Origin: an uncultured Acidobacteriia bacterium
GTDB lineage: Bacteria; Acidobacteriota; Terriglobia; Bryobacterales; Bryobacteraceae
Assembly (NCBI GenBank): GCA_903900705.1
Contig: CAIUOG010000057.1
Span: 1-64,000, forward strand
DNA: 64,000 bases
Reading direction: 5' to 3'
Numbering within the stretch: the first letter of the stretch is position 1; every line of letters begins with the position of its first letter. Made by a program: the position numbers and the translations under genes. The notes under the pieces were generated by a model. It saw nothing but the letters and a program-made list of their open reading frames with translations, made no database searches and was not told the origin of the DNA. Shown here in pieces: positions 24,686 to 35,227 of this stretch.

Positions 24686-25957
24686 TTAGTGCGTTGAAGC
24701 GGCAACGGCCAGGGCAATCAGCGACTTGATCCCTGGCACGATGCTGCCGGCATCCGCGTTTTCTTCGAGCCGGTGCGGCATCCGTTCCATGACGGCGCCC
24801 ACCGCTACGGCCGGAATCCCCATGCTTACCGCAATATTTGCATCGGTCGACCCAACGTCCGCCGGTTTGATCTCCGGCGTACCCGCCTTCCGGAAGTAGT
24901 TCGTGGTCCCGAGCGCCGTCTGCACCAGCGGGTGGTTCAGCCGTTCGGCGGCCGACCGCGCCTTTGAATAGTCGTAGGCGATCTTCGTTTCCGCCCGGAA
25001 ACCCACGCCTTCCTTCTCCGCCGCGCCCCGCACAGCCTTCATGACCGCCGTCTCCAGTTGATCCTGCGTGGTGCTGTCGGTCGACCGCAGATCCACCGTC
25101 AGCCAGGCTTCCCGTGGAATCGCATTCACCACCGTGCCGCCACCAATCATGCCGACGTTAATCACCGGCAGTTTGAACGAATCGAGTCCCTCCACCAGTT
25201 TCGGCAGCGGAATGTCATACAGCGCGTCGATCGCCTTCGCAACAGCCTTGGCCGGGCTCGGCGCTCCCCGGCTCTCCATCGTATGCGCGCCCGGCGAAGT
25301 GTAATAGAACTGGAACTGGCTGATCCGCAACGCTCCGTACCAGACCTGCGTGGACGAAAGATCCACCGCGACAAAGAGATCCGGCTTGTAACCGCTCTTC
25401 TCCAGCCAGTACTTCGCGCCCAGCAGACCGACTTCTTCCTGCACGGACGCGAGGAAGATCACGTCGCCCTTCGTCTTCACGCCGCCCCGGTTGAGCGCGC
25501 GGAACATCTCCAGCGTCGCCATCAGGTTAGAGGTGTCGTCCCCCACGCCAGGCGCGCTGATCACATCGCCTTCGCGTTTGACTTTGATCGGCGTGCCTTC
25601 CGGGAAGACGGTATCGGTATGCGCCGCGAAAACAATGCCGGGCCCGCCGCCGGTGCCCTTGCGGACGCCGCTCACATTGAAAATGTCATCGGTCTTAATA
25701 TCCGAGAGACCCAGTTTCTCCATCTCCGCCCGGATATACTTCGCGCGCGCCTGTTCCTTACCGGAGGGGGCGGGAATCTCCACCAGCCGGATCCACTCGT
25801 CCACAATCGGCGCGGCCCGCTCGTCCACCGAATCCATGGCTTTCTTGACTTCCGGCTGCCGCAGCAGTGCGGGGTCGAACCAGGACTTCTGGCCGAAGGC
25901 GGCCGGGGCAAGAAGCAGCGCGAAAAGCAGTGGAGACAGCGGCGTGGATTTGGTCAT
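24686..25957 (-). CDS. Exported M20-family metallopeptidase
   Basis: A 423-residue peptidase T/ArgE-like enzyme with a Sec signal peptide (LSPLLFALLLAPAAFGQ). Dizinc ligands are visible: His in FAAHTDTVFPEG, Asp in APGVGDDTSNL, the EE pair in SVQEEVGLLG, Asp in VAVDLSS, and a late His in RMPHRLEENA. A dimerisation domain lies around residues 215-330. Probably cleaves peptides or acylated amino acids in the periplasm. Its ATG overlaps the nrdR stop by four bases, making it the last gene of a three-gene reverse operon. Confidence 0.88.
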   Translation of the reverse strand: MTKSTPLSPLLFALLLAPAAFGQKSWFDPALLRQPEVKKAMDSVDERAAPIVDEWIRLVEIPAPSGKEQARAKYIRAEMEKLGLSDIKTDDIFNVSGVRKGTGGGPGIVFAAHTDTVFPEGTPIKVKREGDVISAPGVGDDTSNLMATLEMFRALNRGGVKTKGDVIFLASVQEEVGLLGAKYWLEKSGYKPDLFVAVDLSSTQVWYGALRISQFQFYYTSPGAHTMESRGAPSPAKAVAKAIDALYDIPLPKLVEGLDSFKLPVINVGMIGGGTVVNAIPREAWLTVDLRSTDSTTQDQLETAVMKAVRGAAEKEGVGFRAETKIAYDYSKARSAAERLNHPLVQTALGTTNYFRKAGTPEIKPADVGSTDANIAVSMGIPAVAVGAVMERMPHRLEENADAGSIVPGIKSLIALAVAASTH

Positions 25958-26409
25958 GTCGGTCGTGTGAGAGTTCTGAGTTCGTTGAGGAAGGCCTGTT
26001 CGTCCTGGAAATCGCGATAGACGGACGCGAACCGCACATACGCAATCTTGTCGATGCCGCGCAGGTGGTCCATCAGATATTCGCCGATTTCGATTGTGCT
26101 GATCTCCCGCTCGGGCGACTCCGTCACTCGGGTTTCCACCATATTGACCAGTTCCGAAAGCTTCATCATGCTGATGGGCCGCTTCTCACAGGCCTTCAGC
26201 AGACCGCCCAGAACCTTCTGTCGGTCAAACTTTTCGCGCCGGCCATCTTTTTTGATGACCATGTAAGGAACTTCGTCGATGCGTTCATACGTGGTGAAGC
26301 GCTTCTCGCAGCTGAGGCACTGGCGGCGCCGGCGAATGGAATCGCCTTCCTTACTCTCCCGGGAATCAATCACCCGGTCTTCCATATGTCCGCAAAATGG
26401 GCAGGTCAT
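25954..26409 (-). CDS. nrdR: Transcriptional repressor NrdR
   Basis: A 151-residue regulator of ribonucleotide reductase genes. The N-terminal zinc ribbon has CPFCGHMEDRVIDSRESKEG and RRRQCLSCEKRFTTYE, an almost invariant NrdR signature, followed by an ATP-cone domain (residues 49-139, VIKKDGRREKFDRQKV). Length is standard. It is sandwiched with four-base overlaps between the flippase-like gene and the M20 peptidase; neither neighbour has an obvious link to nucleotide reduction. Confidence 0.97.
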   Translation of the reverse strand: MTCPFCGHMEDRVIDSRESKEGDSIRRRRQCLSCEKRFTTYERIDEVPYMVIKKDGRREKFDRQKVLGGLLKACEKRPISMMKLSELVNMVETRVTESPEREISTIEIGEYLMDHLRGIDKIAYVRFASVYRDFQDEQAFLNELRTLTRPT

Positions 26410-27461
26410 GCGAGTGTACCTTCTTCAGCTTCCCGAATCCGGGCCCAGGTGAGACCCTCGTGAACCGCCAGCAGGACACCCACCGGCAGGATTGCCACGA
26501 ACGAGACCAGCCAGAGCAGCAGACCGAGACCAGTGGCGACCTCGATCGGCACCCCGAAAATCTCCGTCAGAACCAGGACGGCGGTCACCTGAGCCCCGCC
26601 TCCCACGGCGGGCAATTGCACCAGCGATCCGAACGAAACAAATCCCATCAGGATCAGAACATCGATGGGCGCGAACCGCACCGCGTTCCCGAAGGCCTTC
26701 AGAACGCAAGCATAACAGGCCGCAATCAACAGCCACTCCACCACGGTGTACGCAATCAGCCTCACGGTGGCTGCCTGGCTTTTCGTGCAGCGCACTCCGT
26801 CGAGGAACCCTTCCACCACCTTTTGTACCTTTGCAAGATGATGCTCCGCCAGAAAACCGAGCGCCCCCGGAATCCAGCCCTGGATCCGGTGGCTGCTGTA
26901 ACGCATCGCAATCAGGATCGCCAGGCAACCCGCCGCCCCGGCGCCGATCACTGTGCCGCCGACTTCAAGCGCCCACGAAAGCGTGGGGCCCAGCACAACT
27001 CCCGATTTCCGGACCTGACTCAGCGCGAAGCCGAAGACGGCGAGCGCGATCAGTACATCGTAAAGCCGCTCCACCACCCACGCGGCAACCTGCGAGGAAA
27101 ACGGGACATCTTCCTTTACTGCAATCAGATAGGGGCGAACCATCTCCGCCGCGCGCCCCAGCGCCATGGCGGCCGAATAGCCAATAATCGTGGCGGAAAG
27201 CAGGTTCCACAGACTCGCCTTCGGACGCAGCGGCCGGATCAGCACCGCCCAGCGCAGTGCCCGGACCACGTAGGTCCCGTAGGCGCAAACCAGCGAGGTG
27301 GCCAGCCAGCGACCGTCCAAACCCACCACGGCAGAGGCGAACACACTCCAGTTGAACGCCTTTTCCCTCGTCCCATACGCGAAAGCCCAGATCGCGGCGG
27401 CTGCGACGAGCAGGGTCGCGGCAAAAATCTTCTTCCGATGTTGCTGATGGGCTGCTGTCAA
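26406..27461 (-). CDS. Lysylphosphatidylglycerol synthase-type transmembrane protein (flippase-like)
   Basis: About 351 residues with roughly eight hydrophobic segments. Motifs of the LPG_synthase_TM/UPF0104 family are present: GRWLATSLVCAYGTYVVRALRW, GYSAAMALGRAAEMVRPYLI, AAWVVERLYDVL and the late QLPAVGGGAQVTAVLVLTE. Homologues include the membrane half of MprF and stand-alone proteins thought to move lipids. The reading frame is open much further upstream, but that part overlaps the sigma-factor gene and is arginine-rich; a TTG at 27461 just before the first membrane segment is the best start seen. Its stop overlaps the nrdR start by four bases. Confidence 0.8.
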   Translation of the reverse strand: MTAAHQQHRKKIFAATLLVAAAAIWAFAYGTREKAFNWSVFASAVVGLDGRWLATSLVCAYGTYVVRALRWAVLIRPLRPKASLWNLLSATIIGYSAAMALGRAAEMVRPYLIAVKEDVPFSSQVAAWVVERLYDVLIALAVFGFALSQVRKSGVVLGPTLSWALEVGGTVIGAGAAGCLAILIAMRYSSHRIQGWIPGALGFLAEHHLAKVQKVVEGFLDGVRCTKSQAATVRLIAYTVVEWLLIAACYACVLKAFGNAVRFAPIDVLILMGFVSFGSLVQLPAVGGGAQVTAVLVLTEIFGVPIEVATGLGLLLWLVSFVAILPVGVLLAVHEGLTWARIREAEEGTLA

Positions 27462-27596
27462 TAAAATACCGGCGAGGTCCAGACTACCAAAAAATTGGAT
27501 TCCGGAAAAAATGAACCTATCATGATAATGCCTCGTTCCTTCATACGGAAAGGTTTGGCGGCAGCACTTGACTCTGCCGTTAGGTATAAGGCGACT

Positions 27597-28235
27597 ATGG
27601 CAGCAGGAGCGGCATCGGCGATCTGGGCGATTCCAGGAGCGGTGTGGCCGGGCAGGGCCGAAACGAATTTGGATCTCGACAGCACACTTGTGGAGCGGTG
27701 CCTCAGCGGAGATGACTCTGCCTGGGAAGCCTTGGTGCGTCAGCACACCCGGCGCGTTTACGGACTTTGCTACCGCTTCACCGGCAAGGATTCGGAAGCG
27801 CAGGACCTGAGCCAGGAAGTTTTCCTGCGCGTCTTCCGCGCCCTGAGCGGTTTTCGGTCCACCGAGGGGTCCTTCGCCACCTGGCTCACCCGGCTCACTC
27901 GGAACCTGCTGATTGACCACTACCGCCGCACGCGCAACCTCCGCGTGACGGATTCGATTGAAGATCAGCTTCCCCGCGTGGAAGAGGGTTTCGTTTCCAT
28001 GAGCCGCCCGGACGCGGCTCTCGCCGGACGCGAAGCCAGTGAACTGCTCCAGGGCGCGCTCAGTAAGCTGTCGCCGGAGTTGCGGGAAACCATCATCCTG
28101 CGGGACCTGCAGGAAATGGAATACCGGGAGATTGCCGAAGTTCTGGGCATCCCCGAAGGAACCGTGAAGTCGCGATTGAACCGTGGCCGGGCCGAACTGG
28201 CGCGGCTGCTGAAATTTAAGATGGGAAAGCAGTAG
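27597..28235 (+). CDS. ECF-family RNA polymerase sigma factor
   Basis: A sigma-70 family protein of about 212 residues. Region 2 is evident in LVERCLSGDDSAWEALVRQH, SEAQDLSQEVFLRVFRAL and FATWLTRLTRNLLIDHYRR; region 4 in SPELRETIILRDLQEMEYREIAEVLGIPEGTVKSRLNRGRAEL, quoted in parts. The start is uncertain: in-frame TTG 27495, ATG 27522, ATG 27528 and ATG 27597 are all possible, and the last is chosen because residues before it look untranslated. The membrane-anchored zinc-finger protein 37 bases downstream is presumably its anti-sigma factor. Confidence 0.9.
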   Translation: MAAGAASAIWAIPGAVWPGRAETNLDLDSTLVERCLSGDDSAWEALVRQHTRRVYGLCYRFTGKDSEAQDLSQEVFLRVFRALSGFRSTEGSFATWLTRLTRNLLIDHYRRTRNLRVTDSIEDQLPRVEEGFVSMSRPDAALAGREASELLQGALSKLSPELRETIILRDLQEMEYREIAEVLGIPEGTVKSRLNRGRAELARLLKFKMGKQ

Positions 28236-28272
28236 TCTTTACAGAGTTAGAAAAGCTGAGATAGAAAGAGAA

Positions 28273-28908
28273 ATGCTGAGTTGTGAACAGTTCGAAATCC
28301 TGCTCGCCGATTACATCGACGGCGAGCTGAGCTCTCCCGCGAGAGCCGGGGATCGGGCTGCGTTTGAGCAGCACCGCGGTTCCTGCACCGCCTGCGCCGA
28401 GTTCGCCGCGGATGCGCAGAGCGCGGTGTCGTTCCTTGAAATCACGGCGGACGTGGAGCCGCCTCCCGTCCTGATGACGAAGATCCTCCACGCCACCAAT
28501 GAAGGCTGGGAGTTTAAGCTGCGGGCGCGGGGCATTCGCGGCGCGATCAACCGTTTTTTCGCCCCCGTGCTGCAGCCGCGCTTTGTGATGGGCGCGATGA
28601 TGACGCTCATGTCAGTCACCATGCTCAGCCGCTGCGCCGGCGGCCCGAAAGCGAAACTGACCCCGGCGGATCTGGATCCCGTACGGATCTGGTCGTCACT
28701 CGACGACCGGACACACCGGATCTGGGACCGCACCCTGAAGAGTTACGAAAGCATGCGGCTCGTCTTCGAGATCCGCAATCAGATCAACGACTGGAAACAG
28801 CAGCAGGCGGAAGCGGAAGAAGCGGCGGCGGACGCGAAGGCGAACAGCAAAAAGCTGGAAATGCCGAAAGACGCCAAACAGAACACAGGTCAGGAGAAGA
28901 AGCAATGA
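28273..28908 (+). CDS. Membrane-anchored zinc-finger anti-sigma factor
   Basis: A 211-residue protein. The N-terminus has the ZAS-type anti-sigma zinc finger: CEQFEILLADYIDGEL then His34-x3-Cys38-x2-Cys41. A single hydrophobic segment at about 103-122 (FVMGAMMTLMSVTML) anchors it, leaving a helical, charged C-terminal part of about 90 residues with a Gln/Glu/Ala/Lys-rich tail. It follows the ECF sigma gene and overlaps the next gene by four bases. Expected to hold the sigma factor at the membrane until an envelope signal. Confidence 0.85.
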   Translation: MLSCEQFEILLADYIDGELSSPARAGDRAAFEQHRGSCTACAEFAADAQSAVSFLEITADVEPPPVLMTKILHATNEGWEFKLRARGIRGAINRFFAPVLQPRFVMGAMMTLMSVTMLSRCAGGPKAKLTPADLDPVRIWSSLDDRTHRIWDRTLKSYESMRLVFEIRNQINDWKQQQAEAEEAAADAKANSKKLEMPKDAKQNTGQEKKQ

Positions 28909-29669
28909 ATTGCGCCAACCATCCCGAAGTGAATGCCACGGCCTTTTGCCGCGATTGCGGAAAAGCCATGTGCGGGGAGTGCCAGCGTCCGGCGCTTGGT
29001 TCCATCTATTGTGCGGATCATGTGCCGGTAACGCCCCCGGTCTATGCGGCCCCGGCTTACGCGCCCCCGCCGCTGCCATCGCAGGCGTATGCGCCTCCGC
29101 CTCCGCCACCCTCCGCCTGGGCGGAATCAGCCAGCTTCGCCAGTTCCCCCTATGCCGCGCCGGTTGTCGCGCCGGTTCCGGGAACCACCATCCACCCGGT
29201 TCTCGCCCTCATCCTCGGCTTCTGCCCCGGCGTGGGTGCCATCTGCAACGGCCAGTATGCCAAGGGCCTCATCCACGCCGTGATTTTCGGGCTCCTGATC
29301 AGCCTGGTCAGCAACACCCACAACAGTGGAATGGAGGGTTTCCTCGGCATCATGATCGGCGTCTGGGTCATCTACCAGGCGTTCGAGGCCTATCACACCG
29401 CCCGCAAGCGCCGCTACGGCATCGCCGTGGAGGAATTCTCCAGCCTGTTTGAGGTGAAACACTCCCACGGCAAGTTCCCCATGAGCGCCGTGTTCCTGAT
29501 TGTGGTGGGCTTCGTCCTGCTGCTTGATACCACCGAGATCATCAACATGGAGCAACTCGAACGCTACTGGCCCCTCGGTCTGATTGGCCTCGGCCTCTAC
29601 ATGCTCTATGTGCGGCTGAACCCGGCTGATGCCGTGAATACCCATGCTTCCGACGGAGGACGGCAATGA
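28905..29669 (+). CDS. B-box zinc finger membrane protein
   Basis: A 254-residue protein with an N-terminal B-box-like zinc finger (Cys3, His6, Cys15, Cys18, Cys23, Cys26, Cys36, His39), a proline/alanine/tyrosine-rich linker (residues 43-90), and a C-terminal part with about five hydrophobic segments (for example HPVLALILGFCPGVGAIC and AVFLIVVGFVLLLD). The last two resemble the DUF5668 membrane module repeated in the next two genes, including the YWPLGLIGLGLYML segment. Overlaps both neighbours by four bases. Function unknown; placement suggests a part of the sigma-factor signalling complex. Confidence 0.75.
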   Translation: MNCANHPEVNATAFCRDCGKAMCGECQRPALGSIYCADHVPVTPPVYAAPAYAPPPLPSQAYAPPPPPPSAWAESASFASSPYAAPVVAPVPGTTIHPVLALILGFCPGVGAICNGQYAKGLIHAVIFGLLISLVSNTHNSGMEGFLGIMIGVWVIYQAFEAYHTARKRRYGIAVEEFSSLFEVKHSHGKFPMSAVFLIVVGFVLLLDTTEIINMEQLERYWPLGLIGLGLYMLYVRLNPADAVNTHASDGGRQ

Positions 29670-29890
29670 ACGACCAGAGCCAGCACCTGATTCGCGCCAT
29701 TACCGGGCCCATCATTCTCATCACGGTCGGCGTTCTCTTTCTGATCGACCGGTTCAGCCAGTTTTCATTTACCCAGACCTGGCCGGTTCTCCTGATCGTC
29801 GTGGGCATCCTGAAGATCTTTGGCGGCCGCAGACGGCGCGATGACTATATCCCGCCGCCGCCTCCACCGCCCGCCGGGGTGCGTCAGTGA
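29666..29890 (+). CDS. Small membrane protein, LiaF/DUF5668-like
   Basis: A 74-residue protein with two transmembrane helices: ITGPIILITVGVLFLIDRF and WPVLLIVVGILKIFGG. The TGPIILxxxGVxFLxD ... WPVLLIxxGIxKI pattern is the same module seen at the start of the following gene, and resembles the N-terminal part of LiaF/LiaI-type envelope-stress proteins. The tail is an arginine cluster then polyproline. Four-base overlaps on both sides. Confidence 0.75.
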   Translation: MNDQSQHLIRAITGPIILITVGVLFLIDRFSQFSFTQTWPVLLIVVGILKIFGGRRRRDDYIPPPPPPPAGVRQ

Positions 29891-31224
29891 GACCGCGTTC
29901 CATTACGGGCCCCCTGATCCTCGTCGTGATCGGGGTCGTGTTCCTGCTCAACAATCTGGGACACGAACTGCCGCTGTGGTCGATATTTACCGACTACTGG
30001 CCGGTCCTGCTGATCCTCCTCGGCCTGGTGGGTCTGGTGGAAGTTCTCTATCACGCCAGCCGGGGCGACGCCATTCCGCCGCGCCCGCTATCCGGTGGTG
30101 GCTGGTTCTGGATCGTTCTCGTCATGTTCATCGTCTGGGGCAGCAACAAGGGTGGCTTCCAGTTGGGAAGGCTGAACTCGGGCGGAATCACCATCCTCGG
30201 CACCGACTTTGACTACGACGTCAACCTCGTCAACCCCTCCCAGGGCATTTCCCGTGTGGTGCTCGATAACATCCACGGCAACCTCGCCGTGAAGGGGGAA
30301 GAGGCCGGCGAAGTGAAAATCTCCGGCCATAAAACCGTGCGCGCCTTCAATAAGACGGAAGCTGACCGCGGCAACGAACAGAGCCAGGTTCGCGTGGAGC
30401 GCCAGGGCGATCTGCTCATCGTGCACGCCGACGAGCCGAGGGGCGGCAAACTCCTCAACATCAGTACCGACCTTGATATCACCCTGCCCCGGGGCATCAA
30501 CGTCGAAACCCGTGGACGCAATGGCGATCTCACCGTCGAAGACATCCAGGGCAGTGTCGACGTGAGCAGTGGCCGGGGCGACGTCCGCCTCAACAACATC
30601 GGCAAAGACGTGAAGATCGAGTCCTCCCGCACCGGTCTGTTGCGTGCCGTTTCTCTCAAAGGCTCACTCGACGTCCAGGGACGCGGCGGCGACGTCCAGG
30701 TGGAAAAAGTCGAGGGCCCCGTCACCATCAACGGCGAATACTCGGGCACACTGGAGTTCAAAGAGTTGGCGAAACCGATGCACTTCACCTCCGCCCGCTC
30801 GGACTTTCGGGTGGAGCAGATTCCGGGCAGTGTGACGATTGATCTGGGCGAAGTCAAAATCAACAACGTGGTGGGTCCGTTGCGCTACTCCACCGGTTCC
30901 CGTGACATCCAGATCACAGACGTCACCAATTCCCTCGAACTGACGCTCGATCGTGGCGATGTCCAGATCACGCAGACGAAGTCTCCGCTGCCGAAGATGG
31001 AAGTCCGGACGCGCAATGGCGATCTGACCCTCACCGCGCCGGAGAAGGCTTCCTTCGAACTCGACGCTCGCACGGGTCAGGGTGAAGCGCAGAATGACTT
31101 CGGCTCACCGCTCGAATCGAAGTCGGAAGGCCGCTCAGCCACTCTCAAGGGCCGTGCAGGCGGCGGTGGTCCGAAGGTGAATCTGAATACCGAACGCGGC
31201 AGCGTGACGATTCGGAAGAATTAG
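29887..31224 (+). CDS. LiaF-like membrane protein with DUF4097-type beta-helix domain
   Basis: A 445-residue protein. The first 95 residues contain the module TGPLILVVIGVVFLLNN ... WPVLLILLGLVGLVEV and a third helix FWIVLVMFIVWG. The rest is a long beta-solenoid of short repeats such as INVETRGRNGDLTVEDIQGSV, VSSGRGDVRLNNI and LDVQGRGGDVQVEKV, typical of DUF4097/DUF2807-like adhesin domains that are common in envelope-stress loci. It probably faces the periplasm or surface. Last gene of the five-gene sigma operon; the converging glycoside hydrolase gene ends ten bases away. Confidence 0.8.
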   Translation: MRPRSITGPLILVVIGVVFLLNNLGHELPLWSIFTDYWPVLLILLGLVGLVEVLYHASRGDAIPPRPLSGGGWFWIVLVMFIVWGSNKGGFQLGRLNSGGITILGTDFDYDVNLVNPSQGISRVVLDNIHGNLAVKGEEAGEVKISGHKTVRAFNKTEADRGNEQSQVRVERQGDLLIVHADEPRGGKLLNISTDLDITLPRGINVETRGRNGDLTVEDIQGSVDVSSGRGDVRLNNIGKDVKIESSRTGLLRAVSLKGSLDVQGRGGDVQVEKVEGPVTINGEYSGTLEFKELAKPMHFTSARSDFRVEQIPGSVTIDLGEVKINNVVGPLRYSTGSRDIQITDVTNSLELTLDRGDVQITQTKSPLPKMEVRTRNGDLTLTAPEKASFELDARTGQGEAQNDFGSPLESKSEGRSATLKGRAGGGGPKVNLNTERGSVTIRKN

Positions 31225-31233
31225 GCCCGGACG

Positions 31234-33210
31234 TTATTGCACCATCACGCGGTGCTGCCCTTTCGGGAGCAGCATCGCGCAATTACTCGCTTCCACGCAG
31301 ACGGCCGGGAATTCCTGGCCGTCTATTTCCATTTTGAGGGGTTTGCGCTCGAACCGGACAATCGCCCGGCTGTCGCTCGCATACTCGAAGAGGGTTTTCC
31401 TGCCCTCCACCGAAGCGGCTTTCAGGCTCGCGTTCAGATCCGCAATCTGCAGCATCTCCCGGGTGGCCACCTTCTCCACCGAATGTCTCCCCGCCGGCAG
31501 TCGCAGCAGGGACTTCGACAGCATCGGCCACGCCTTTCCATCCACCACGGCGCCCTCGCCATTCCAGACAAGCTCAATATCAGAGGGTGAATCGAGCGAA
31601 ATGCCGCGCCGGTCCTTCGTGTACTCCCGCACCACCGCCGATGACGCCGCCAGCAAAGACAGATCCGGCTTCAGAATACTGTTCTCGAAATACAGCGCAA
31701 CCCGCGGAAAGGCCGTGGACGCCAGATGCACCAACTCGAATAGTTCCGTCCCGGTCTGTTGTTTGGTCGGGTACACGTCCTGATAACGGTCCACAATATT
31801 GATGTCGATGGCGAGCTTTCCCGTATGCGGCGTCAGCGGTTGGTAGCGTTTCGCGATCTCCGGGTAGCGCTGCGGGCCCAGATTCCAGACCGTAGCCGGA
31901 TCTTCGATCAGGAATGAAAAACTGTGCGTATCGAGCAGCGGCAGCACGCGCCCGGCATCCGCGCCGATGGAATCCTTCATGCCGGTGTCAAACCGGTCGT
32001 CCACATGAGTCAGAACGATGTCGAGTCCGGGCCGGAACTGCTCCACAGCCCGGAGCCACTCCTCCTGCATCTGCCGCGCGAGGTCGGCCCGGAAATCCAG
32101 AAACTGGCGCAGCGAATTCGCGTCGTTGTGTTTCGACCAGATCTCGATGGGGTCCCAGCCCGCCCGCGCCCGGAAGTTCGCCCGCACCGTATCGTTCATT
32201 GGTGTGAAACGCGCCGGATTCCCCGCGCCTTCCAACGACTCGAAGTAGAGTTCCGCCAGGTTGACGCCATCCCAGTCAAAGCGGTCCGTCATCTGTTTGA
32301 GCCCGTCGCGCACGGCGGCGGAGCAGGCCGGGTTCTGCAGATTCATAAGCTTCCGCCAGTCGAGCTGGGCATCCTGCAGGGCGGCAGTTTTCTCACGCCA
32401 TTCCGGGTGATCGTTCCAGAACTTCTCGCTCACATGCGGCAGTTCCACCCAGGCGTACACCAGAACCCCGTGCCTATGGCAGGCGGCAATCAGCCTCTGC
32501 AGGTATTCGTCCCGTTCCGGAGTGGAATCGTAGAAATGCCACGAAGCCACATGCAGGGCACTGATGCCGGCTTCGCGCCAGCGCGACGCGAGATAGTCGA
32601 GGTCGGCGCGCGTCCGGTAAGAGTAGTCGAAAAAAGCCCACAGACGGGAGCTGCGAATCGACGGGCGGACGCCCAGATCCGCCAGAGACTGCATTAGATA
32701 TGGGAGGCGTTCATAGCCATTCTGGCCCGGGTTAAGCGCCACCCACAGCACAGCGCCCGCCCCCAACCGGTAACCGGCAACAATGGGTGCGCCGGTCCAG
32801 CGCTCCTTCGCGAAGATGCGCGCGTCGTCAGGAGCATCCGTGCGGTGCAACTCGATGGTTTTCTCCCAAATCACCGGCAGCGCGGGATTGTGCGTGTCCA
32901 CCAGATGCAACACCGGCACGGTATCGAGGTGCTGTCGGAAGCCAAAACTCGTAGCCAGAGGGGAGCCGCCTTCGAGGATCAGTGCGGCGCCACCCTCCAC
33001 TTTGGCCTGCCAGTCGGCTGCTGCCAGCGTGCCCGGCGGGGCGACGAAGATATCCGCCGCGGAGGCCGGACCGGGCACATGCCCCACCGACGAAAGCACC
33101 GCCGGCCAGGAGCCCGACTGCCCGCCCACAATCGCAAACGTCCCCGCAGCACAGGGAACCGCCCCCGCGAACAACAGAACTGCCCTCAGAATGCTACTTC
33201 GTAATCGCAT
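31234..33210 (-). CDS. Exported glycoside-hydrolase-like TIM barrel protein (GHL10/PgaB-like)
   Basis: A 658-residue protein with a signal peptide (ILRAVLLFAGAVPCAAG). Residues about 23-185 form an alpha/beta N-terminal domain; residues about 190-500 look like the GHL10-type barrel, with RADLDYLASRWREAGISALH, VYAWVELPHVSEKFW and, at 311-324, FDWDGVNLAELYFE, which supplies acidic residues where relatives such as the PgaB C-terminal domain have their catalytic site. The C-terminal 150 residues are beta-rich. Its start overlaps the 3' end of the TPR-barrel gene by 17 bases, so the two are translationally linked. A role in trimming or guiding a secreted polysaccharide is inferred from the pair, not shown. 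Confidence 0.75.
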   Translation of the reverse strand: MRLRSSILRAVLLFAGAVPCAAGTFAIVGGQSGSWPAVLSSVGHVPGPASAADIFVAPPGTLAAADWQAKVEGGAALILEGGSPLATSFGFRQHLDTVPVLHLVDTHNPALPVIWEKTIELHRTDAPDDARIFAKERWTGAPIVAGYRLGAGAVLWVALNPGQNGYERLPYLMQSLADLGVRPSIRSSRLWAFFDYSYRTRADLDYLASRWREAGISALHVASWHFYDSTPERDEYLQRLIAACHRHGVLVYAWVELPHVSEKFWNDHPEWREKTAALQDAQLDWRKLMNLQNPACSAAVRDGLKQMTDRFDWDGVNLAELYFESLEGAGNPARFTPMNDTVRANFRARAGWDPIEIWSKHNDANSLRQFLDFRADLARQMQEEWLRAVEQFRPGLDIVLTHVDDRFDTGMKDSIGADAGRVLPLLDTHSFSFLIEDPATVWNLGPQRYPEIAKRYQPLTPHTGKLAIDINIVDRYQDVYPTKQQTGTELFELVHLASTAFPRVALYFENSILKPDLSLLAASSAVVREYTKDRRGISLDSPSDIELVWNGEGAVVDGKAWPMLSKSLLRLPAGRHSVEKVATREMLQIADLNASLKAASVEGRKTLFEYASDSRAIVRFERKPLKMEIDGQEFPAVCVEASNCAMLLPKGQHRVMVQ

Positions 33211-35227
33211 ACCAGACTCCTGCGCGGAAATCGTTGTAATTCGGGCGGCGGGGGTTGTTCAGATTCACCAGGTACACGCCATGCACGCCGCTCAGCGTCA
33301 GCAGCAGAGACCGTGGCATTCCCGGGGGATGAAACCGAATCCCCGGACCAACTTCCACAAAATTCGCCCAATACTGGCGCTGCCGGTCAAAAGTCACCGC
33401 TCCCGAAAGGAACGCCTGCATCCGAAGTCCTCCGACCGCCCCGGTGTAGCCCAACTTGTTCTGCGAATAGTTGATCAGGTTGTTATTGAAACGACTGATG
33501 AAAACGCTGTCCGCCGTGGTTTCCAGGAACGCCCCGCTACTGTCACCGCCCAGCGAAGCCCCGCGCGCCCTCGACCACGTCACACCGCCCCGCAGGTCCC
33601 GCCAGAGATCCCCATATTTGTAGCTCACCGCGCTACCCGCCTCAAACCATCCGAGCGCGCCGTGAAATGATGACGTTGCCACGCCCGCTCCCATCACAAA
33701 AGCACTTTCCGAAAGCGCCAGCGGCTTGTAGTTGATGCCCACCCCCCGCGCATCGCCCATATAACGCACGGAAGCGTAGGGATGCAAAGGCAACTTCTTC
33801 AGCCGAAATTCCGTCTTGATTTGCCCGTAGCCAAACAGATCATTCCAGCGTGAGGAAAACAGTGGATAAACCCAGAGTGTGGTGCGGACGAGTTGCTGCC
33901 CGGGGCGGAGACTTTCATAAGCCTTGCGCGCCTCGGCCGCGATGGACGAGTCCGCGCTGCGCCGCGCCACATCGAACCAGTGCAACGCCATGGCGTCGTC
34001 ATGCAGCATGTTGTTGGTCCACCCCAGTTTCAGCGCCGTAGAGGCATCCACCGGGTTGGCTTCCTGCGCCAGCGTGAAGAACCGGAGCGCGTCTTTCAGA
34101 AAGCCGGCGTTGTAACTGCGTTCCCCCAGAATGCGCGGGTCGATGATATTCTCCTGCGCCTTCCGCTCCTCCAGTTCGAGCGGCAGATGCAGCGCCATGC
34201 GCACACGGTTGCAGGTTGCCGCGTCCCCGTGCGCCAGCACGTTTTTCAGCAGTGGCATGGCTTCGGTTTCCCGATGGTCCGCCAGCCACAGCAGGCCCAG
34301 TTGCGCCGCCGCCAGATAGTCCGCCGGGGACGCTGCCACCACAGCCGCGAACTCACGCTCCGCTTCCGTGCGCAGCGCGGCGTCTTTCTCCGACATGCTC
34401 AGCAGAAGATAGGCCAGTTCCCGATGCAGCGTGTTGTTCTTTCCGTCCAGCTCCAGCGCGTTCCGGAATTCGTAAACATACGGGTACCGTTCCGGCAACT
34501 GCTCCCGCGCCAGTTCCGATGCCCTGGGCTCTCCCCCGCGCGATGCCGCCAGCAGGGCAGCGGTCCTGCCTTCCTGGTTCCCCCGCGCGTTTTCCACGCG
34601 CGCCAGTTCCAGCAGCACCGATTTCCGTTCCGGCAGCAGCAGAAACGCCTCCCGGTAGTTCGCGGCCGCCAGCGGCAGTTCATCGCGTTGTTCCGCCAGT
34701 TGAGCCAGTTCATATCGCGCACTGAAAGTCGGTTTGGATGTCGCCACCACCTGCTGCCACCGGGAAATGCCGCTGGCGAGGGGCTCGTCCACATTCCGGA
34801 ACGCCGTCGCAGCGGTCTCCCGCAGTGTGGCGTCACCCGCCGTGTCGCGGACGCGCAGGAAAATTCGCCGCGCTTCAGCCTTTCGCGCCGGCGCATCGTC
34901 GCGCGCCTCATAACAGAGGAAAGCGTACTCCAGCGCCACATGCAGGTCCGCGGGGTCCAGCCGCACCGCCTCGCCAAACTGCTGCCGGGCAGCTTCGGTC
35001 TCCCCGGTTTTCAGCAGCGTATAAGCCAGATTCTTGCGGATGTCGGTCCGTCGCGGAGAAACGGTTGCCGCCTTTTCGAACGACAGAATCGCGGCATCGT
35101 AGTCGTGTGCGCGCAGGGAAGCGAATGCCGCTGTCAGCGGTGGATAGGCTGGATCGGTTTCGGGCGCCGGGGCCTGCGCCAACGCCTGCGCCAGGGCAAT
35201 CATGAGTACGGGAATAACAGGCAGCAC
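33194..35227 (-). CDS. TPR-repeat outer-membrane beta-barrel protein (PgaA/NfrA-like architecture)
   Basis: A 677-residue exported protein. After a short signal peptide (PVIPVLMIALAQALAQA) come TPR repeats from about residue 28 to 430, e.g. YDAAILSFEKAATVSPRRTDIRKNLAY and SAYNAGFLKDALRFFTLAQEANP-type units. From about 455 the sequence changes to alternating aromatic/hydrophobic strands (LWVYPLFSSRWNDLFGYGQIK, VWYAITK at the end), consistent with an outer-membrane barrel; RARGASLGGDSSGAFLETTADSVFISR recalls the NfrA C-terminal region. TPR plus barrel is the architecture of PgaA, BcsC and NfrA exopolysaccharide exporters. No inner-membrane synthase is nearby. Confidence 0.75.
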   Translation of the reverse strand: MLPVIPVLMIALAQALAQAPAPETDPAYPPLTAAFASLRAHDYDAAILSFEKAATVSPRRTDIRKNLAYTLLKTGETEAARQQFGEAVRLDPADLHVALEYAFLCYEARDDAPARKAEARRIFLRVRDTAGDATLRETAATAFRNVDEPLASGISRWQQVVATSKPTFSARYELAQLAEQRDELPLAAANYREAFLLLPERKSVLLELARVENARGNQEGRTAALLAASRGGEPRASELAREQLPERYPYVYEFRNALELDGKNNTLHRELAYLLLSMSEKDAALRTEAEREFAAVVAASPADYLAAAQLGLLWLADHRETEAMPLLKNVLAHGDAATCNRVRMALHLPLELEERKAQENIIDPRILGERSYNAGFLKDALRFFTLAQEANPVDASTALKLGWTNNMLHDDAMALHWFDVARRSADSSIAAEARKAYESLRPGQQLVRTTLWVYPLFSSRWNDLFGYGQIKTEFRLKKLPLHPYASVRYMGDARGVGINYKPLALSESAFVMGAGVATSSFHGALGWFEAGSAVSYKYGDLWRDLRGGVTWSRARGASLGGDSSGAFLETTADSVFISRFNNNLINYSQNKLGYTGAVGGLRMQAFLSGAVTFDRQRQYWANFVEVGPGIRFHPPGMPRSLLLTLSGVHGVYLVNLNNPRRPNYNDFRAGVWYAITK

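Follow-up and report, generated by a model that had tools for sequence, protein, structure and literature searches.

The closest described counterparts of the locus reported here, a five-gene operon encoding an extracytoplasmic function (ECF) sigma factor, a zinc anti-sigma factor and three membrane proteins, are SigW-RsiW of Bacillus subtilis, the Lia systems (LiaIHGFSR and LiaFSR-LiaX), toastrack contexts with a linked sigma factor and the phage shock protein (PSP) systems. The operon occupies positions 27597-31224 of the plus strand of a 64-kb stretch of DNA (hereafter the window) from an uncultured bacterium of the phylum Acidobacteriota (GenBank assembly GCA_903900705.1, contig CAIUOG010000057.1). 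Acidobacteriota are abundant soil bacteria and, to our knowledge, little is known of their envelope-stress control. ECF sigma factors typically use promoters with AAC at -35 and CGT at -10 and positively regulate their own genes (PMC8103513); the LiaFSR system of enterococci is inhibited jointly by LiaF and the C-terminal beta domain of LiaX (PMC10269926); and toastrack domains occur in contexts with DUF2089, B-box and LiaI-LiaF-TM domains, for which output through an operonic sigma factor has been proposed (Ravi et al., 2024; PMC11237479). A review lists an acidobacterial ECF group, ECF270, without a known mechanism (PMC8999054).

SigW-RsiW is the closest solved sigma and anti-sigma pair by profile comparison, and the operon resembles it in a predicted zinc anti-sigma domain, one predicted transmembrane (TM) helix and an AAC/CGT-type promoter. 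In contrast to SigW-RsiW, the operon adds LiaI, LiaF, toastrack and B-box genes, its anti-sigma factor has a long helix beyond the TM segment, and its sigma factor falls under the SigW equivalog cut-off and scores higher against the SigE model. The LiaI-LiaF TM modules and the toastrack protein are shared with the Lia systems; unlike LiaFSR, none of the five genes encodes a histidine kinase or response regulator (LiaS or LiaR), the regulator being an ECF sigma factor, and the C-terminal domain of LiaF (PF09922) has no match at 0.01 in the final protein of the operon (protein 5) and a weak one in just two of its 31 relatives (best E 0.0021). Toastrack and LiaI-LiaF-TM are also PSP partner domains, whereas PspA and PspC are unmatched among the five proteins, the genome's one PspA match lying on another contig. 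Ravi et al. (2024) use the identical domain vocabulary with a linked sigma factor; their context is a four-gene DUF2089 one treated in general terms, with no word starting "acidobacter" in the main text and no anti-sigma or promoter analysis in the parts of the text examined. The initial annotation of the window had called the operon a plausible uncharacterised system, which holds for this operon in the literature reached, whereas the general link between operonic sigma factors and Toastrack, LiaI-LiaF-TM and B-box domains was already published in outline. No description of this operon was found in the titles and abstract openings of the papers listed, with most subscription papers and all supplements beyond reach.

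Taken together, gene content, gene order, conservation, promoter motif, zinc motifs and phylum-wide linkage, all of them read from sequence comparison, indicate that the locus is real, apparently old and probably self-regulating, an ECF system with Lia-type membrane partners.

Operon Organization and Conservation

Five open reading frames (ORFs) on the plus strand make up the operon (Table 1), as first annotated, and their order recurs across the phylum, so that the arrangement is not due to chance. Four-base overlaps, initially thought to link all five genes, exist at three junctions (28905-28908, 29666-29669 and 29887-29890), whereas the stop of the sigma gene and the start of the anti-sigma gene lie 37 nt apart. 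Three features absent from the initial annotation are the ECF-type promoter, the DUF5683-like region of protein 3 and the recurrent nrdR neighborhood described below. The membrane module noticed in the last three proteins is LiaI-LiaF-like_TM1 (PF18917), above the Pfam cut-off in each of them (37-39 bits against 27; 8.9e-10 in protein 3 and 2.7e-9 in protein 5), and the DUF4097 part proposed for the final protein is borne out by Pfam (1.7e-13).

A scan of contigs with protein 3, reaching close relatives only, gave 34 loci, all with acidobacterial titles. As far as each contig extends, the genes follow one another as sigma, anti-sigma, protein 3, LiaI-like and toastrack. Of the 34 loci, 23 had a LiaI-like gene called separately; the remaining loci are cut, carry the module within a longer protein 3 or were missed by the threshold. 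At E ≤ 0.001, a phylum-wide profile search found matches in 299 of 396 genomes, many being weak or confined to the membrane part. From the matches listed, 40 loci outside the organism's own class were taken in two sets of 20, the first largely from the upper and the second from the lower part of the list, a non-random sample; class was assigned by titles and similarity, some titles giving no class name. Within the class 62 loci were scored, 33 from the contig scan and 29 from the phylum search, with possible overlap of species and with the window and one locus with a cut protein 3 (L040) excluded.

The operon order recurs in the 62 class loci and, with lineage-specific losses, in the 40 others. 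All 62 class loci have the anti-sigma gene, 60 the sigma gene (L024 and L044 are cut) and 59 the toastrack gene (L014, L019 and L032 are cut); sigma and anti-sigma genes occur together in 60, the other two being cut before sigma. Outside the class, the sigma gene is found in 38/40 loci (L077 and L087 are cut) and the anti-sigma gene in 37/40 (L077 is cut; none was detected in L163 and L166). In the 98 scored loci with contigs that extend to the sigma gene, that gene is always linked to the membrane part of protein 3, also where toastrack and B-box are missing; since the loci were found through protein 3, the evidence lies in this linkage and not in the presence of protein 3 itself. The order is thus not confined to this genome, and the combination of ECF signaling with LiaF/LiaG-type membrane parts, as a system conserved in Acidobacteriota, is supported within and outside the class.

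Table 1. Coordinates of the operon, its parts and its upstream neighbors in the window.
Feature	Position	Strand	Basis or remark
ECF sigma factor, SigW/SigE-like, sigma2 + sigma4	27597-28235	+	Pfam, profile search against PDB
Membrane-bound zinc anti-sigma factor	28273-28908	+	zf-HC2, invariant H34/C38/C41, RsiW profile match, AlphaFold2
Anti-sigma domain	28273-28443	+	
Weak TM helix of anti-sigma factor	28576-28635	+	
Long conserved helix of anti-sigma factor, predicted exported	28678-28857	+	
Protein 3: B-box, proline-rich linker, DUF5683-like membrane region, LiaI-LiaF TM hairpin	28905-29669	+	
B-box zinc finger, ligands C3 H6 C15 C18 C23 C26 C36 H39	28911-29021	+	Pfam, ligand table, model
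DUF5683-like membrane region (PGVGAxxNGQYxKGxxH)	29193-29414	+	Most conserved part of protein 3
LiaI-LiaF TM module of protein 3	29487-29606	+	PF18917
Small LiaI-LiaF-like membrane protein, 74 aa	29666-29890	+	PF18917, 3.7e-9
Protein 5: LiaI-LiaF TM module, third hydrophobic segment, toastrack	29887-31224	+	
LiaI-LiaF TM module of protein 5	29902-30033	+	
Toastrack/DUF4097 beta-helix	30280-31215	+	
ECF-type promoter TGAACCT-N15-CGTTCC	27512-27539	+	-35 GAACC at 27513, -10 CGTT at 27534
nrdR (presumed), divergent, outside operon	25954-26409	-	59-93% identical relatives beside operon in other genomes
LPG_synthase_TM family gene, outside operon	26406-27464	-	Start codon uncertain

The Sigma and Anti-Sigma Factors

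The sigma factor matches Sigma70_r2 (5.5e-22), Sigma70_r4_2 (5.8e-18) and Sigma70_ECF above the Pfam cut-offs with no further domain, which fits an ECF (group IV) protein, and the general NCBIfam model TIGR02937 (4.9e-37); that model excepted, no named sigma subfamily reached its cut-off among the best 25 NCBIfam models. In a profile search against PDB, SigW came first (5wuq, 2e-39). The anti-sigma factor scores just below the zf-HC2 cut-off of Pfam (22.0 bits against 22.2; 1.7e-4), its Hx3Cx2C zinc motif is invariant in 60 of 60 rows and agrees with the class I (ASDI) motif, and its nearest PDB profile match is RsiW (1.7e-10). Foldseek also ranks RsiW first (5wuq_D, probability 0.92, TMt 0.71), but with an E-value of 0.62. 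The AlphaFold2 model (mean predicted local distance difference test score, pLDDT, 83.5; predicted template modeling score, pTM, 0.38) contains the anti-sigma helices, a membrane-compatible helix at residues 102-121 and a long helix at 136-195, and the helix after the TM segment is conserved among relatives. We regard the two proteins as a candidate cognate pair of SigW-RsiW type, which would bind each other.

Tandem anti-sigma domains in a single ORF were found in 14 operons outside the class (L078, L079, L082, L084, L086, L088-L090, L157, L162, L165, L167, L168 and L170), 11 of them without a toastrack gene. Toastrack is thus present in 3/14 tandem-domain as against 19/21 single-domain operons (35 loci, with L074, L077, L163, L166 and L171 left out; Fisher p 5e-5, uncorrected for relatedness), so that toastrack and tandem anti-sigma domains mostly exclude each other, which hints at a regulatory link.

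A Conserved Promoter Motif and the Search for Further Targets

The ECF-type promoter (Table 1) ends 57 nt before the sigma ATG, its GAAC standing 84 nt ahead of that codon, and its position makes the ATG at 27597 a sensible start, rather than the upstream TTG at 27495. In other loci we searched up to 300 bp upstream of the sigma match for the relaxed pattern GAAC-N16/17-CGT, which is expected in about 8% of loci, the background being 0.26 per kb on each strand as estimated from 165 occurrences in 628,168 bases. It is present in 28 of 31 class loci (missing from L015, L016 and L032; 2.35 expected) and in 37 of 38 non-class loci (missing from L168), or 35 of the 36 with the full 300 bp available (2.73 expected); the loci are related to one another, and binomial values are not to be taken literally. 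Because a conserved ECF-type promoter precedes the sigma gene, the operon probably activates its own transcription.

The exact pattern TGAACCT-N15-CGTTCC occurs at 18 sites in 41 genomes against 16 for the reversed-pattern control, an excess so small that only placement is informative: 13 sites lie ahead of a sigma/anti-sigma pair, one ahead of another sigma homologue and four elsewhere. At one locus (L153) another sigma homologue (E 7.8e-57) has the exact motif about 130 nt before the match; it lies near a contig end without an anti-sigma match and is a possible second family member. The window (27518-27523) shares with 11 of the 66 sigma promoters found at other loci a spacer that starts with TATNAT right after GAACC/T; the hexamer resembles the -10 element of a sigma-70 promoter that would overlap the ECF one, and a sigma-70 promoter scan gave none there (0 found, 1.1 expected).

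In the organism's own genome, GAACCT-N15/17-CGTTC has eight matches (control 1), the seven non-sigma ones mostly within long ORFs as judged by eye. TGAACC-N16-CGTTCC with one mismatch has 45 (control 7), an excess that the sigma promoter alone cannot explain; loci were available for 30 of the 45 and scores for 29, and 27 of the 28 non-sigma ones lie inside ORFs called by a heuristic crude enough to score the sigma promoter itself as covered. No other convincing promoter target was found in this genome with these two patterns. We rejected a broad regulon, since the other matches lie mostly within ORFs and a single promoter is convincing, and we rejected pspA as a target because its relaxed-pattern site, about 500 nt upstream of the match, is too far to convince. 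A PrsW-family protease gene is present elsewhere in the genome, with no relaxed-pattern site on the gene's strand at that locus. Within the operons, no promoter motif was seen in ten gaps of more than 60 nt preceding the toastrack gene; partly inspected sites within 250 bp occur ahead of the anti-sigma gene in 12/33, protein 3 in 7/34 and gene 4 in 1/23 loci, and the stricter sites ahead of the anti-sigma gene that were inspected belong to the sigma coding sequence, at its conserved end.

The Membrane Partners

In protein 3, the B-box scores 27.3 bits against a cut-off of 24.1 (zf-B_box, 4e-6), is modeled with pLDDT of 93-97 per ten residues (most helices are also confident, the linker is not) and gives the protein its best PDB profile match, TRIM3 (7e-5). 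The zf-B_box model matches protein 3 alone in its own genome, and none of 14 control genomes. The ligands of a B-box are paired as a cross-brace. All eight are kept in 53 of 60 aligned relatives; in five class members (L017, L018, L019, L021 and L022) one zinc site has no ligand left while the other is complete, a joint loss that fits this arrangement, and two loci (L091 and L092) have none. Outside the class the B-box is present in 26 of 40 loci, and in the 14 others neither CxxC nor CxxH occurs in up to 90 residues preceding the membrane region, while the sigma gene is present in all 14 and the anti-sigma gene was detected in 13. The B-box is thus genuine but dispensable, and unlikely to be an essential second switch.

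The DUF5683-like region contains seven invariant residues (P108, G109, G111, A112, Q117, K120 and H124) in 33 rows; PF18935 (DUF5683) itself is matched at E ≤ 0.01 by 14 of 60 relatives and not by the window protein. As the constant partner, the membrane part of protein 3 is probably a better candidate than the B-box for an essential partner of the switch. A fold search with protein 3 gave no match at E ≤ 0.001, and tblastn against plasmids none. Six divergent class loci (L024, L026-L028, L030 and L033) have an enlarged protein 3 of 405-444 aa, with a further LiaI-LiaF-like stretch near the C-terminus by alignment.

Protein 5 carries a toastrack domain (PF13349, 51 bits against a cut-off of 22.9) that all 31 aligned proteins match at E ≤ 0.01. 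It also has matches to the models for LiaG and LiaX, each far under its cut-off, and has no PDB profile match at 0.1; tblastn against plasmids found two Streptomyces toastrack matches. Ahead of the toastrack there are three hydrophobic segments in 25 of the 31 proteins and, at that threshold, two in the other six (L012, L017, L018, L021, L022 and L027). The mean number of lysines and arginines is 3.7 at the N-terminus, 2.4 in the loop between helices 2 and 3 and 0.9 in that between helices 1 and 2, a bias from which, by the positive-inside rule, the toastrack is predicted to be exported. Outside the class it is present in 25 of 40 loci; each of the 15 others has at least 3.9 kb of downstream DNA, where a lenient search found no toastrack. 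In two (L086 and L168) of the nine toastrack-less loci whose downstream ORFs were listed, a hydrophobic protein of 72-73 aa takes its place.

The own genome has six matches to the LiaI-LiaF module, three in the operon and three at one other locus, on contig C166 (L041, 638-3927), and none elsewhere. There the module adjoins two ORFs that by reading are a sensor kinase and a response regulator of LytTR type, as in a two-component LiaF-like system.

Proposed Mechanism and Alternatives

We give somewhat better than an even chance to an autoregulated switch of SigW-RsiW type, made of an ECF sigma factor and a membrane anti-sigma factor, that carries its own LiaI/LiaF/LiaG-like membrane partners. 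In unstressed cells the zinc anti-sigma domain would tether the sigma factor at the membrane, while the toastrack, probably exported, and the LiaI-LiaF proteins would shield the TM helix and the long exported helix of the anti-sigma factor. Envelope damage, through lipid or cell-wall perturbation, would change this membrane complex, and the anti-sigma factor would then be inactivated, probably by regulated proteolysis. The freed sigma factor would act chiefly on the GAAC-N16/17-CGT promoter of its own operon, and the additional membrane proteins would stabilize the membrane and re-cage the system. Complex formation, signal, proteolysis and protective function are what we infer here; an envelope-stress role is likely, judged from the protein families. 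In favor of the proposal count the SigW and RsiW profile matches, the invariant zinc ligands, the linkage and promoter counts, the PrsW-family gene of the genome and the precedent of LiaX in enterococci.

Several observations weigh against this reading. NCBIfam ranks SigE first for the sigma factor (149.9 bits, cut-off 265), not SigW, whose equivalog TIGR02948 gives 99.1 bits against a cut-off of 243.1, and SigE (9m9d, 1.9e-38) is close behind SigW in the PDB profile search. The TM helix of the anti-sigma factor is weakly hydrophobic in the window (1.39, Kyte-Doolittle 19-mer) and weak in close relatives, although clearer in other loci. No protease was recognized by Pfam among the five products. 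Ravi et al. (2024; PMC11237479) argue for intracellular toastrack domains, the opposite topology. With a single convincing promoter in the genome, a broad protective regulon is not seen. Finally, toastrack and B-box are gone from many non-class loci in which sigma is kept, so that neither is essential to the switch everywhere.

A further, tentative extension would make the DUF5683-like/LiaI-LiaF protein an obligatory co-regulator of the ECF sigma and anti-sigma factors throughout the phylum, in a module with the B-box as an optional adaptor in the cytoplasm and exchangeable inputs, either toastrack with one anti-sigma domain, as in most lineages, or tandem domains without toastrack.

The most serious competitor to the switch with membrane partners, though a distinctly less probable one, takes the membrane proteins as outputs only: genes 3-5 would have no part in regulation and would act as conserved effectors, stiffening or repairing the membrane, and an ordinary sigma/anti-sigma switch would answer to an unlinked sensor or protease. 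The promoter motif ahead of the first gene, the dispensability of toastrack and B-box in some lineages and the role of LiaI-type proteins as outputs of Lia systems are consistent with it, whereas the linkage of sigma to the membrane part of protein 3 in 98 loci, although these were found through protein 3, and the mutual exclusion of toastrack and tandem anti-sigma domains, albeit uncorrected for relatedness, count against it.

It is unlikely that the cue is cytoplasmic rather than from the envelope, with the zinc anti-sigma domain and the B-box sensing thiol oxidation or zinc/metal status. Both cysteine-rich zinc modules are predicted cytoplasmic and some zinc anti-sigma factors are redox sensors (PMC7406223), but that source finds zinc motifs in about half of membrane-bound anti-sigma factors and suggests a structural role, the B-box is lost or half-lost in part of the loci, and the helix beyond the anti-sigma TM segment is conserved. 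Less likely still is direct binding of the B-box to the sigma or anti-sigma factor as the second cytoplasmic switch of the initial annotation, which would suit a protein 3 with its N-terminus inside and the complete ligands of most relatives, and which we rejected as the leading idea owing to the full and half losses of the B-box in loci that keep sigma and protein 3.

Gene Neighborhood

The divergent gene that we take to be nrdR is separated from the operon in the window by the LPG_synthase_TM gene. A relative of nrdR stands beside the operon in each of the 15 class loci of the set L008-L022 and L040 whose upstream DNA is long enough, and in 9 of the 17 loci usable in the first non-class batch; in the class loci L023-L039, which are more divergent, none was found. 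LPG_synthase_TM relatives are less constant (L007, L008 and L016-L022 in the class and six non-class loci). The flanks of L044-L071 are too short to be counted, and the non-class figures are those of the first batch. The recurring neighborhood suggests one old, vertically inherited locus.

Directly after the operon lies a convergent minus-strand ORF (31234-33210) whose 658-aa product has no Pfam match at 0.001, followed on the same strand by a TPR protein (33194-35227). An 11-pair inverted repeat with a T-rich stretch after it (31299-31324), within the convergent gene past the operon end, is terminator-like, although shuffled sequences contain such sites at least as often.

Implications

Since the ECF locus probably activates itself and is retained in much of the phylum, often beside the same neighbor, it may well be a core regulator of envelope stress in Acidobacteriota, and its conserved promoter offers a direct basis for a reporter assay. 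If the proposed switch is true, LiaI, LiaF and toastrack parts can be driven by a sigma/anti-sigma switch in place of a two-component system; and if protein 3 is indeed an obligatory co-regulator, the module would be an ECF-driven, kinase-free counterpart of LiaFSR.

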